Assembly (NCBI GenBank): GCA_013349295.1
Contig: DUZW01000003.1
Coordinates: forward strand, 1-64,000
Reading direction: 5' to 3'
Length of the DNA stretch: 64,000 nt
Origin: Deltaproteobacteria bacterium
GTDB lineage: Bacteria > Desulfobacterota > Desulfobulbia > Desulfobulbales > Desulfurivibrionaceae
Part shown: piece after piece, positions 60,315 to 64,000 of the stretch
Position numbering within the stretch: the stretch's first letter is position 1
Layout of the letters: every line of letters starts with the position of its first letter
The notes under the pieces: model-generated
The model's input: only the letters and a program-made list of their open reading frames with translations
Told to the model about the DNA's origin: nothing
Database searches by the model: none
Made by a program: the position numbers and the translations under genes

Positions 60315-60363
60315 ATTGCAATTATGCAATGCCACCAGCGCGCCTGTATTGCATAATTGCAAT
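60315..60363 (+). promoter_or_regulatory. Tandem dyads TTGCA-N4-TGCAA, enhancer-site candidate for a sigma-54 activator
   Basis: The 16-bp arms attgcaattatgcaat and attgcataattgcaat form a perfect inverted repeat with a 17-bp spacer. Each arm is itself a dyad TTGCA-N4-TGCAA, and the two dyad centres are 33 bp apart, about three helical turns. They lie about 90-150 bp upstream of the sigma-54 promoter, the usual place for NtrC-family binding sites. This lies in the 322-bp space between ldcA and the membrane protein gene. Confidence 0.72.
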
Positions 60364-60450: not shown

Positions 60451-60467
60451 CTGGCACGGGAAATGCT
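60451..60467 (+). promoter_or_regulatory. Sigma-54 promoter (-24/-12)
   Basis: CTGGCACGGGAAATGCT matches the consensus YTGGCACGrNNNTTGCW at all fixed positions but one, with exact GG-N10-GC spacing. Transcription would begin near 60478, about 80 nt before the first gene of the cytochrome group. Confidence 0.8.
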
Positions 60468-60559: not shown

Positions 60560-60985
60560 ATGGCGCACTTATTGATCTTGTTGGCGATTATCCCCCTTGG
60601 CTGTTTCCTTTTAACCAAAAAAGCCCACCCTAAAGACCGGTGGCTGCTCTTCGGCGTCTCGTTTGGAACGGTTATCTCTCCTGCCAGCTACGGCCTGATC
60701 CAATTTACCAGCATGCCGGTGATCGGCAAGTTACTGGGCCTCATCGGCCTGATGGCAAATCTTATCCACGGCTCCCTGGGCTACTTCTTCCTGCAGAGCA
60801 TCGGCATACTGGCGGAAGACGCCCCTCTGCAAGGCTCGCAGCTTCTCATGATCCACATGGTCAACGCCTTGATCTGGTCGTCATATTACGGGATGATCGG
60901 TTGCAAGATCGGCCAGAAAATCGCGGGTGAGGTTAGCGAAAGCAGCCACGGCAGGACACCTGTCCGCCAAGAGGTGCGGGGATAA
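60560..60985 (+). CDS. Polytopic membrane protein, first gene of the cytochrome group
   Basis: 141 aa with about four transmembrane segments (near 3-20, 32-55, 60-82 and 95-118) and a charged C-terminal tail. Histidines occur in or near the segments (LIHGSLGYFF, MIHMVNALIW), which would allow haem or quinone contacts, but no family is recognised. CAGGAGG precedes the ATG; a longer frame lacks support. It follows the sigma-54 promoter and starts the four-gene group with the heptahaem cytochrome and cytochrome b. Confidence 0.8.
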   Translation: MAHLLILLAIIPLGCFLLTKKAHPKDRWLLFGVSFGTVISPASYGLIQFTSMPVIGKLLGLIGLMANLIHGSLGYFFLQSIGILAEDAPLQGSQLLMIHMVNALIWSSYYGMIGCKIGQKIAGEVSESSHGRTPVRQEVRG

Positions 60986-61066
60986 TCACCAGACACGGCC
61001 AGCGCCGAGGGCCGCACGGGTACACGAGCTAAAAAATGCAACAAATCCATAGAGGGAGGAATCGCC

Positions 61067-61297
61067 ATGATGAATTCCAGAGAAGGAAAAACCGCACACG
61101 GACATCATTATGCCTATCACGGCACAGAATTGGCGAATGAAACAGGGGAAGGGATCAACATGGCCGCCTTCGGCATCCTGGTTTCCCTGGCAGGGATTGT
61201 GGGCTTCTGGGGCATGGCCTGCCTCGTGGCCGGCTTGATGAACAACAGCCTGGTCGGCCTTGGCCTCGGCTGGCTTGCTGCAATCCTCGGCGTATGA
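61067..61297 (+). CDS. Small His-rich membrane protein
   Basis: 76 aa. The N-terminus is His-rich (HGHHYAYHGTE) and the C-terminal half is one or two hydrophobic segments (about 32-55 and 60-76). AGGGAGG precedes two adjacent ATG codons. It lies between the polytopic protein and the heptahaem cytochrome. A metal-handling or assembly role is only a guess. Confidence 0.7.
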   Translation: MMNSREGKTAHGHHYAYHGTELANETGEGINMAAFGILVSLAGIVGFWGMACLVAGLMNNSLVGLGLGWLAAILGV

Positions 61298-61336
61298 GCT
61301 ATTCCGCTTGCGGCTGAGGGCAACAAAAAAACAGAG

Positions 61337-61398
61337 GTGCGCATGGTTTCATCCCGGTTTCGGAATCTCTCCCGAAGCAGGGATGAAGCCATGCGCAC
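61337..61398. repeat. Large stem-loop between the small membrane gene and the heptahaem gene
   Basis: Arms of 19 nt, GTGCGCATGGTTTCATCCC and GGGATGAAGCCATGCGCAC, pair fully (one G-U), with an inner stem TTCGG/CCGAA in the loop. No T-run follows on the plus strand. On the minus strand a run of T does follow, but no minus-strand gene lies upstream of it. It could be a processing or stability hairpin that separates expression of the first two genes from the cytochromes. Confidence 0.75.
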
Positions 61399-61455
61399 AG
61401 AGGCGTTTACCACGAAGCGGAGGAATACCCGGCAAACCAACCTACTTGATGTACG

Positions 61456-61470
61456 CCTGCCTCCGGCAGG
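61456..61470 (+). repeat. Short hairpin before the heptahaem cytochrome gene
   Basis: CCTGCC-TCC-GGCAGG, a 6-bp stem with a 3-nt loop, ends 44 nt before the start codon. Too short and lacking T to be a good terminator; possibly an mRNA element. Confidence 0.4.
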
Positions 61471-61514
61471 ATAAAATCCGCAGCTAAAGATTTCACAGGG
61501 AGATACCTGAAGCC

Positions 61515-62669
61515 ATGAAAAAAACATGCCCGTTATCGATCAGTATTGGCTTGAGCATCGTTTTTGCCTGTCTTGCGGCACCGCCCCTTGCCCGGGCCGC
61601 CATCAAAAACTCCGACTGCTTCGGCTGCCATAGCGACGAAACCCTTTTTAGAAGCGAAACCGATGGGGTGAGTCAAAGCCGGATGAGCGAACAACTCTTC
61701 ATCGACAAGGAAAAATTCAGCCATTCTGTCCATCACAGCAATGGCATCGGCTGTGTTGATTGCCACGCCGATATAAAAAACCTCAATTACAATGAGGAAG
61801 TACCCCACAAAAAACAACTGGCACCGGTCAACTGCACCATGTGCCACGAGGAGGAGAGCGCTGCATTCAAGGACAGTGTCCATATGAAAATCCGCGGCAA
61901 AGGGATAACCATGACCTGTTACGCCTGCCATGGCTACCATTATGTTACGCACCAGGAATCCATGTCGGTGGTGGAACGGGTCAACAATGTCTGTGCCAAA
62001 TGCCACAACCCCTACCTGTCCCACGACTGGCTGCCCAAGAAAAATGAACATTTCGCCTTTGTGGAATGCGTGGTTTGCCATGCCCCTGAAGCACCACGCC
62101 ACATCCAACTCACTTTTTTTGATCTGGTGACCAACAAGATGTACTCCGGACAGGAAATTCTCAAAATTCTCGGCATAGCCGAAAATGAGTTCATGCCCAT
62201 GCTGGATATAAACAAGGATGGCAACATCAACATCAACGAGTTTGAAAATCTGGAACTGATGCTCAAGCAAAAGAACGTCCATGCAATTTTCCATGCCGAA
62301 CTCGTTGTGGAGATGCAAGCCATGGCCCATCAGGTGAACAAAGGAACAGCGGAAAGAGATTGCAAGACCTGCCATGCCGCCGATTCCCCGTACTTCAAGG
62401 CGGTTGTCCTTTTGCTTACCAAGGATGACGGCAGCGCGAACCACTTCCAGGTGGACAGGACCGTACTGGAAAGTTTCAGCCTGAGACATTTTTACGTTTT
62501 GGGCGGCACGAGAATGAAACTTATCGACAAGATCGGATTTCTGCTCCTGGCCGGAGGTTTATCCGTGGTGCTCGTGCATCTCACCGTGCGGATCGCCACC
62601 ATCCCCCTGCGCAGAAAGAATGAATGCGACGACAAACAGTTAAGCCTGGAGAAGGAGGTTTCCCAATGA
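61515..62669 (+). CDS. Heptahaem c-type cytochrome with EF-hand and C-terminal membrane anchor (CbcA-like)
   Basis: 384 aa. A signal peptide (residues 1-29) is followed by seven CxxCH motifs at residues 35, 80, 107, 135, 160, 185 and 283, with extra His in between as candidate axial ligands. Between haems 6 and 7 an EF-hand loop occurs at 231-242 (DINKDGNININE), with all calcium ligand positions filled. A transmembrane segment lies near 336-358 with a positive cytoplasmic end (RRK). Seven haems plus an anchor and an adjacent b-type cytochrome match, from memory, CbcA of the Geobacter CbcBA quinol oxidase. The cytochrome b gene overlaps by 4 bp. Confidence 0.9.
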   Translation: MKKTCPLSISIGLSIVFACLAAPPLARAAIKNSDCFGCHSDETLFRSETDGVSQSRMSEQLFIDKEKFSHSVHHSNGIGCVDCHADIKNLNYNEEVPHKKQLAPVNCTMCHEEESAAFKDSVHMKIRGKGITMTCYACHGYHYVTHQESMSVVERVNNVCAKCHNPYLSHDWLPKKNEHFAFVECVVCHAPEAPRHIQLTFFDLVTNKMYSGQEILKILGIAENEFMPMLDINKDGNININEFENLELMLKQKNVHAIFHAELVVEMQAMAHQVNKGTAERDCKTCHAADSPYFKAVVLLLTKDDGSANHFQVDRTVLESFSLRHFYVLGGTRMKLIDKIGFLLLAGGLSVVLVHLTVRIATIPLRRKNECDDKQLSLEKEVSQ

Positions 62670-63286
62670 CCCATGAAAAACTGATCTATATCCATCCAAC
62701 CCCGATTCGCGTCTGGCATTGGCTCAATGCGGCAGGAATCGTCCTGCTGGTTATCACGGGTTTCCAGATCCGCTATGCGGAAGTGCTCAATCTCATGCCG
62801 TTAAAAGAGACCATAACCCTGCATAACTATGTCGGTTTCGGCGTAATCGCAGCCTATTTCCTCTGGCTCTATTACTATCTGAGCACCGACAAAATCACCA
62901 TTTACTTTCCGAATCTCAGCACCTTTGTCGCCAAGGCAGTGAAGCAGGTTAAATTTTACGGCTATGGGATTTTCCGTGATGAACCCAACCCCCACATCAT
63001 GACCCCGGAAAACAAGTTCAACGTCCTGCAACAGAAAGCGTATCTGGGCATCATGTTTGTCCTCCTGCCGGCACAGATGATCTCAGGAGTTTTTCTCTGG
63101 AAGGTGAAGGGGTACTCGGACTACATCCATCTGCTGGGCGGGATACGGATAATCGACACGATCCATGTCCTTTTCTTTTTCTTCTTTGCCTCATTCCTGG
63201 TGGTGCATTGTTATCTCGCCACACTTGGACATACCCCGCTTGCGCATTTCAAGGCAATGATCACCGGCTATGAAGAACACCGTTAA
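62666..63286 (+). CDS. Dihaem b-type cytochrome, quinol-oxidising subunit (CbcB-like)
   Basis: 206 aa with four transmembrane segments. Candidate haem b ligands: His10/His18 in IHPTPIRVWHWLN, His53 in TLHNYVGFG, and the C-terminal TIHVLFFFFF and VVHCYLATLGH. This is the cytochrome b561/HydC-FdnI type that takes electrons from menaquinol. GGAGG is eight bases before the ATG, and it overlaps the heptahaem gene by ATGA, so both form one complex. A terminator follows. Confidence 0.9.
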   Translation: MTHEKLIYIHPTPIRVWHWLNAAGIVLLVITGFQIRYAEVLNLMPLKETITLHNYVGFGVIAAYFLWLYYYLSTDKITIYFPNLSTFVAKAVKQVKFYGYGIFRDEPNPHIMTPENKFNVLQQKAYLGIMFVLLPAQMISGVFLWKVKGYSDYIHLLGGIRIIDTIHVLFFFFFASFLVVHCYLATLGHTPLAHFKAMITGYEEHR

Positions 63287-63335
63287 GCGCCACTCTGACG
63301 GACCGGGCAAATACGACACCCTACGGTGCAGAAAC

Positions 63336-63373
63336 ACAAAAGGAGGGTTGCCCTTGGGCAACCCTCCTTTTGT
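63336..63373. terminator. Bidirectional rho-independent terminator
   Basis: An 18-bp perfect stem (arms acaaaaggagggttgccc and gggcaaccctccttttgt) with a 2-nt spacer is followed by T residues on the right and by A residues on the left. It ends both the cytochrome group and the convergent activator gene. Confidence 0.93.
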
Positions 63374-63397
63374 TATCCTTTAAGACACACTGAAATG

Positions 63398-64000
63398 TTA
63401 TTTAATCGCAGCCGAAAAGGTAATGCCGTATTTCTTCATCTTCCGCCACAATGTTGTCTTTTCGATACCGAGGTAGGCTGCCGCCTTGCCTCGATGGCCG
63501 TTAAAGCGTTGCAGGGCCTCAAATATCGTACTCGATTCCGCGTTGAGCAGAGGATTAGCCTCAATGCGCAGATTTTCATGGTGATCATCCTCGCCACCCA
63601 TTTCCCGAAGCAAGCCCTCCGGCAGATGATACCTATCGATCGTCTCCCCGTGACAGAGAACAAAGCAGTACTCGATGATATTTTCCAGCTCCCGCACATT
63701 ACCCGGATACTCATGACGCATGAGAATACTAAGGGCATCAGGAGACAGCGTCTTTATCTTCTTGTGACTCAACGCATTGAATTTCCTAATAAAATGATGG
63801 GCAAGCAGAGGAATGTCCTCGCGACGCTCAATCAGGGGCGGCAAAGAGATTCTGATCACATTAAGCCGGTAGAAGAGATCGGCGCGAAACACCCCTTGGT
63901 CCACTTGCTCCTTCAGGTTCTTGTTGGTGGCGGCAATAACCCGGACATCCGCCTTGTGGGTGGTGGTGCAGCCCAGCGGCTCGAATTCCTTTTCCTGCAA
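63398..64000 (-). CDS. Sigma-54-dependent transcriptional activator, N-terminal part outside the window
   Basis: The last 200 residues are visible. The AAA+ domain ends with sensor motifs (RADLFYRLNVIRISLPPL, sensor II EYPGNVRELENIIEY), and the Fis-type HTH follows (ALQRFNGHRGKAAAYLGI and TTLWRKMKKYGI). The frame is open to the window edge, so the regulatory domain cannot be seen. It is convergent with the cytochrome group and the likely activator of its sigma-54 promoter. In Geobacter the CbcBA genes depend on a sigma-54 activator named BccR. Confidence 0.9.
   Translation of the reverse strand: MQEKEFEPLGCTTTHKADVRVIAATNKNLKEQVDQGVFRADLFYRLNVIRISLPPLIERREDIPLLAHHFIRKFNALSHKKIKTLSPDALSILMRHEYPGNVRELENIIEYCFVLCHGETIDRYHLPEGLLREMGGEDDHHENLRIEANPLLNAESSTIFEALQRFNGHRGKAAAYLGIEKTTLWRKMKKYGITFSAAIK

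Follow-up and report, generated by a model that had tools for sequence, protein, structure and literature searches.

A CbcBA-type cytochrome locus with a separate sigma-54 regulator in a member of the Desulfobulbales

In Geobacter the Cbc5 (CbcBA) complex is encoded by cbcEDCBA, where GSU0593 is CbcB and GSU0594 is CbcA, and one account gives the physiology of this family as quinol oxidation near −0.2 V (PMC12307469). CbcBA outside the Desulfuromonadales is not new as a question, because the presence of CbcAB has been mapped over the Desulfobulbia and Thermodesulfobacteria, going by a figure legend (PMC10553843). That paper proposes a transfer of CbcBA from the Desulfuromonadales into Seep-SRB2, predicts that the complex runs in reverse there, and reports that Qrc is absent from both Seep-SRB2 and the Desulfobulbales. 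A CbcL-like bc complex of Desulfurivibrio alkaliphilus has been proposed as a link from quinone to periplasm (PMC12545173). Here we describe a locus at the end of the window, a stretch of 64,000 nucleotides of contig C3 from a Desulfobulbales bacterium whose genome (2.9 Mb in 66 contigs) is 88% complete.

On sequence comparison the locus is homologous to CbcBA, in a lineage-specific form that has a separate regulator. The unit spans 60316-65260, so that the window edge falls inside it, and comprises a sigma-54 promoter, two small membrane genes (ORF1 and ORF2), a heptahaem cytochrome c whose gene overlaps that of a cytochrome b, and an activator gene convergent with these (Table 1). The same arrangement recurs in relatives and is therefore not due to chance. 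Two observations, made over 146 Desulfobulbales genomes, are new here: ORF1 is restricted to genomes that have this cytochrome b, and a tandem dyad with a sigma-54 promoter is found at this locus in 17 of its 19 occurrences. We put at about 0.7 the probability that the locus is the Desulfobulbales branch of Cbc5/CbcBA, a membrane complex that would move electrons between menaquinol and periplasmic cytochromes.

The cytochrome pair and its descent

Geobacter-type loci stand in for G. sulfurreducens in these comparisons. They were recognised by gene order and by PpcA homologues, present at 71-77% identity in five genomes (G318, G099, G061, G188 and G392), from which we infer the label. G. sulfurreducens itself was sought through PpcA and not found: the 76 genomes searched in f38 gave nothing at E 1e-30, and the 48 in f60 reached 86% identity at best. 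The gene order was taken from L089 and L091, where CbcA and CbcB are followed by a multihaem cytochrome (12 and 9 CXXCH respectively), a membrane protein with a single CXXCH and a further membrane protein; the listing for L086 has a wrong-strand frame over the CbcC region. This order matches the make-up of cbcEDCBA as given in two papers (PMC11434368, PMC7894505).

The cytochrome c has seven CXXCH motifs, at residues 35, 80, 107, 135, 160, 185 and 283, a hydrophobic stretch at its N-terminal end and a membrane helix at its C-terminal end. The start of the cytochrome b overlaps its stop as ATGA. A preliminary description of this DNA had proposed a membrane-anchored heptahaem cytochrome c with a coupled cytochrome b, and the seven motifs, the anchor helix and the overlap bear this out. 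All seven motifs are invariant in 11/11 aligned Desulfobulbales proteins, as are eight further histidines (73, 98, 123, 142, 170, 179, 272 and 355), a number that is enough for bis-histidine ligation of seven haems. When compared by profile with an alignment of 11 Desulfuromonadia-type CbcA proteins, the cytochrome c gave a probability of 100 and E 1.3e-41 over 323 columns; the haems, the EF-hand, and the membrane anchor with its histidine all align. By this comparison it is a homologue of the Geobacter-type CbcA, nearly end to end. The histidine in the anchor, His355 (62577-62579), does not vary among the 11 Desulfobulbales proteins and lines up with one that is likewise invariant in the 11 CbcA proteins; it is a possible haem or quinone contact. 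The closest named relatives are metagenome-assembled genomes (five loci), two of which are titled Desulfurivibrio sp. and Desulfobulbaceae bacterium UBA2273. The closest solved sequence is the Protein Data Bank (PDB) chain 28pb_A ("Cytochrome c"), which aligns with the L086 CbcA over residues 30-305 of 350 (E 3e-133) and, at E 8e-9, with the window protein; we infer that it is the soluble domain of CbcA. A fold search with the model of the window cytochrome c did not return 28pb_A among the best 50 of 85 matches.

In the cytochrome b four histidines (His18, His53, His167 and His181) are invariant in 11/11 aligned proteins. The distances between them presumably suit a pair of b haems, as found in HyaC-type subunits, and four helices are predicted from family membership. 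The protein is 47.8% identical to its counterpart in L086, which together with the CbcA profile upholds the likeness to CbcBA noted at the outset. An alignment search gave matches at E 1e-10 in 100/395 genomes of the phylum, and at E 1e-50, the threshold used hereafter, in 42 of 146 Desulfobulbales genomes. In genus g4 of the same family as the window there was no cytochrome b match in 5/5 genomes. A tree was made from 72 cytochrome b rows, with a midpoint root; it includes fetched loci only, so that most of the 42 genomes lie outside it, and L039 (a 9-aa fragment) and L043 (a cut copy) were dropped. All 13 rows from the Desulfobulbales group together in a single clade (100/99), in agreement with the earlier placing of the locus outside the Desulfuromonadales. 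This clade is sister to families f37/f41 (97/94), and the joint group stands beside, not inside, a 15-row clade of Desulfuromonadia-type CbcB, with weaker support (95/77) under the midpoint root. The cytochrome b is thus placed as a CbcB homologue in a separate Desulfobulbales clade. Given this separation the Desulfobulbales branch is an old one, and a recent transfer from Geobacter was rejected. The partner cytochromes in f37, f41, f24 and some other families have 12 to 25 haems in a single frame.

The EF-hand of the cytochrome c had been thought to mark a variant form. This does not stand. A strict EF-hand pattern is present in 47 of the 54 family loci with at least seven haems, Geobacter-type loci included, and it is therefore a feature of the family; the count excludes the duplicate loci L040-L043 and the partial loci L038 and L109. 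Shuffled sequences gave an expectation of 0.3, and the pattern occurs in 0/40 other multihaem fragments from the same DNA. Four of the seven loci that lack it have a near-EF loop (L027, L034, L074 and L107), and three have none (L112, L113 and L120). Nine thirteen-haem relatives (L082-L084, L093, L108, L110, L111, L116 and L119) have two loops, 239-265 residues apart, which suggests a duplicated module. A literature search combining EF-hand, multiheme cytochrome and calcium found no paper, and among 15 of the 78 matches of a looser search those pairing EF-hand with CbcA seem by title to be unrelated.

The sigma-54 activator and its candidate sites

The preliminary description had a sigma-54 promoter ahead of the unit and a sigma-54 activator convergent with it. 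Both are found: a −24/−12 site at 60452-60466, and a minus-strand gene for a PAS-PAS-AAA+-HTH_8 protein with no receiver domain. The whole gene (C3:63398-65260, 620 codons with a tentative start) runs past the window edge. Each PAS domain carries Cys-x8-Cys-x3-Cys, and a motif of this kind is present in 7/10 other neighbouring activators scanned, most of the seven being from the genus of the window; the exceptions are L031, L037 and L074. In a tree of activators the window protein falls in a clade of 12 (100/99), apart from nine activators located beside Desulfuromonadia-type cbc loci (100/100); the branching does not settle the relation between the two clades. Several rows of this tree are cut at internal starts, and two, from L099 and L101, are in the wrong frame. 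None of the four f73 rows is in either named clade, so the activators of L099, L101 and L103 lie outside the nine-member clade. All three Geobacter-type neighbours scanned out of the nine are REC-AAA+ proteins with an N-terminal receiver, and we take the regulators of this type at Geobacter-type cbc loci to be BccR, on which a literature search restricted to Geobacter gave no paper. On the window side, the scanned neighbour at L035 has no receiver domain. The suggestion that the window activator is the equivalent of BccR was rejected: it has PAS-PAS in place of a receiver and belongs to a separate clade. An activator of the window clade adjoins the cytochrome genes in 10/14 fetched Desulfobulbales loci, and one of the other four is cut by the end of a contig.

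Judging by eye, we also noted genes next to the response regulator at Geobacter-type cbc loci for membrane proteins that resemble histidine kinases and whose sensor part has a CXXCH (L086:506-2137, L089:1326-2909 and L091:1180-2823).

The single dyad TTGCA-N4-TGCAA has five sites in the 2.9 Mb genome, and two of these are the tandem pair at the locus. The pair stands before ORF1 in families f1 and f3, and dyads are found with the activator subclade in f1, f3 and f11, but not at L032. An exact dyad-dyad-promoter pattern, derived from the window and related loci, was run over the 146 genomes of the order. It gave 19 sites in 14 genomes, compared with none for a reversed-pattern control, and 17 of the 19 are at a cbc locus. 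Twelve are directly before ORF1 and five after it (four just before the cytochrome c and one at a contig edge). The 14 genomes all belong to the set of 42 that have the cytochrome b. Because the pattern was partly built from genomes that were searched again, this test bears on exclusiveness and not on discovery.

Accessory genes and surroundings

As first described, two membrane genes of no known family precede the cytochromes; both ORF1 and ORF2 have hydrophobic segments, and neither has a Pfam match at E 1. ORF1 was found in 23/146 genomes (E 1e-6), one of which (G011) holds just a 29-residue piece at a contig end. Every one of the 23 also carries the cytochrome b and so falls within the 42 (hypergeometric 1.2e-15, ignoring kinship). 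The two genes are on one contig within about 6 kb in 17/23, and on different contigs in six. The motif N-x2-HG-x2-GY is common to 19 distinct ORF1 rows, a set that includes cut copies of a single gene. The AlphaFold model of ORF1 is good, with a predicted local distance difference test score (pLDDT) of 85, and has no PDB fold match at E 0.001. At Desulfuromonadia-type loci the sole match to its profile, at E 0.097, falls within the frame of the L091 cytochrome c. Identity with CbcE was rejected (hhalign probability 0.1%). By these comparisons ORF1 is a real lineage-specific addition to the locus. ORF2 is a looser family with paralogues elsewhere, such as C3:76643-76912 near a second sigma-54 regulator, and its tie to the complex is therefore weaker. 

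ORF2-like small membrane genes are found in the region C3:76.3-80.0 kb (L009:16265-19978), where they adjoin a histidine kinase-like gene and one for a receiver-type sigma-54 regulator, the latter clustering with regulators near cbc in G032 and G037. The hairpin at 61337-61398 has a stem preserved by two-sided changes at ten pairs among six sequences of the genus. It has no T-run and no Rfam match up to E 0.5, and is possibly an element for mRNA processing or stabilisation. About 8 kb beyond the cytochromes is an Hmc-like complex (C3:70953-73879; L009:10953-13879), with a pentahaem cytochrome, an HmcB-like Fe-S protein and an HmcC-like NrfD protein, assigned on matches below the NCBIfam cut-offs. 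It is also near the cbc genes in G011 and G030, and partly in G032. Upstream of the unit are what we take, from their sequences, to be genes for a type III pantothenate kinase-like and an LD-carboxypeptidase-like protein.

Table 1. Positions of the features of the unit in the window
Feature	Coordinates	Strand	Description
Upstream dyad 1	60316..60329	none	TTGCAATTATGCAA; putative activator site; TTGCA-N4-TGCAA, in tandem with dyad 2
Upstream dyad 2	60349..60362	none	TTGCATAATTGCAA; 33 bp from dyad 1
Sigma-54 −24/−12 promoter	60452..60466	+	TGGCACGGGAAATGC; gap of 89 bp from dyad 2 and of 93 bp to ORF1
ORF1	60560..60985	+	Membrane protein of 141 aa with motif N-x2-HG-x2-GY
ORF2	61067..61297	+	76 aa, one hydrophobic helix, G-x-WG motif
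Long covarying RNA hairpin	61337..61398	+	Between ORF2 and cytochrome c; z −5.35
CbcA-type heptahaem cytochrome c, membrane anchored	61515..62669	+	384 aa; profile E 1.3e-41 to 11 CbcA
EF-hand loop of cytochrome c	62205..62240	+	DINKDGNININE; residues 231-242, between haem 6 and haem 7
CbcB-type cytochrome b	62666..63286	+	206 aa; PF01292 E 3.3e-27
Inverted repeat between convergent genes	63336..63373	none	Probable two-way terminator
PAS-PAS-AAA+-HTH_8 sigma-54 activator, 3′ part	63398..64000	-	Gene continues to C3:65260

Electron flow, alternatives and known systems

The simplest reading of these sequences is that CbcB would oxidise menaquinol and CbcA deliver the electrons to periplasmic cytochromes, so that the predicted role of the complex in its host is to link the quinone pool and the periplasm. 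CbcB would take electrons from menaquinol by way of its b haems and hand them to CbcA, which would feed periplasmic carriers, and the reaction may run backwards. ORF1 would be an accessory membrane subunit or an assembly factor. Both PAS domains, each with its Cys-x8-Cys-x3-Cys motif, would sense redox state, and the activator would turn on essentially the cbc unit alone, through the pair of dyads.

Several results weigh against this interpretation. Identity between the cytochrome c and its L086 counterpart is only about 24%, and the AlphaFold model of the window cytochrome c is poor (pLDDT 53) and provides no structural check. The locus has no CbcC, CbcD or CbcE, and no 12-haem or CbcD-like gene follows the cytochrome b. 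On the side of regulation, two of the 19 composite sites (in G594 and G606) precede another gene, NifX-like by eye, and the activator of L037 is in the same subclade, yet no dyad pair stands before its cytochrome c. A receiver domain is present in the neighbouring activator of L031, at the C-terminal end, and at L033, L034 and L036 no activator of the window kind was found. A porin of MtrB/PioB type (PF11854) was not found in the 88%-complete genome, other porin types not being searched for. This porin is present in 54/146 genomes of the order and 13/17 of the genus, where the complex does not track it: 5/7 genomes with the cytochrome b have the porin, and 8/10 without, counting among the latter G016, which has a cytochrome b piece at a contig end. 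Extracellular transfer, put forward with interspecies transfer in the preliminary description, is thus not supported by a porin conduit in the window genome, at its present completeness.

The same complex could work in reverse: hydrogenase, formate dehydrogenase or a partner cell would reduce periplasmic cytochromes, and these would feed menaquinone and so replace the missing Qrc. The reported absence of Qrc from the Desulfobulbales makes this a live rival; the study in question also predicts reversal of CbcBA in Seep-SRB2 (PMC10553843), and the Hmc-like complex lies nearby. The sequence gives no direction, but the physiology of the Geobacter family cited above (PMC12307469) is that of quinol oxidation, and we judge reverse operation to be a real possibility that falls short of an even chance. 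Alternatively the genes might encode a different periplasmic oxidoreductase, related to thiosulfate, tetrathionate or nitrite, with the cytochrome b in the PF01292 superfamily by descent only. Its best NCBIfam match is indeed a thiosulfate reductase subunit, at 136 bits against a cut-off of 204, but a catalytic subunit is not among the genes of the unit, the match of the cytochrome c to CbcA takes in nearly its whole length, and in the tree the cytochrome b sits beside CbcB. We consider such an enzyme very unlikely.

The activator might also control other genes and lie here by chance, the cytochrome genes being under another regulator. The two NifX-like sites, the other sigma-54 activators in the genome and the missing dyads of L037 would suit this, but the position of the clade activator in 10/14 loci, and the dyads that accompany its subclade in f1, f3 and f11 (L032 excepted), make it unlikely. 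If the locus is the Desulfobulbales branch of CbcBA, then sulfur-cycling bacteria from which Qrc is reported absent have a second, separately kept branch of the complex on which Geobacter draws near the energetic limit. Its regulation can be tested directly by way of the promoter, the dyads and the near-exclusive activator site, and ORF1 offers itself as a candidate subunit.

The frequency of the EF-hand suggests an unexamined role for calcium in a respiratory multihaem cytochrome. A broader proposal would make CbcA, in most of its family, an electron conduit that binds calcium, to which the Desulfobulbales independently added a PAS switch and ORF1; it is tentative and, taken as a whole, less likely than not. 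If true, the loop between haems 6 and 7 would tie periplasmic Ca2+ to the electron flow between quinone and periplasm or to the stability of the complex. One complex of the thermodynamic limit would then have two unrelated redox switches, a thiol- or Fe-S-sensing PAS activator and the response regulator of Geobacter, and ORF1, with its invariant histidine, would be a dedicated membrane subunit added by the Desulfobulbales.

CbcL is a different bc-type cytochrome from CbcBA. D. alkaliphilus is probably in the same family as the bacterium of the window, and a link from quinone to periplasm is proposed in both. Like the CbcBA of Seep-SRB2, the window locus is a homologue outside the Desulfuromonadales; for Seep-SRB2 a transfer is proposed (PMC10553843), whereas here the Desulfobulbales cytochrome b rows make up a separate clade. 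The closest resemblance is to Cbc5 of Geobacter, judged on the stand-in loci. Both have an anchored heptahaem CbcA with an EF-hand followed by CbcB, and a sigma-54 activator nearby. The window locus differs in having ORF1 and ORF2 in place of CbcC, CbcD and CbcE, a PAS-PAS activator and not a response regulator, a cytochrome c of about 24% identity, and a cytochrome b that belongs to a separate clade.

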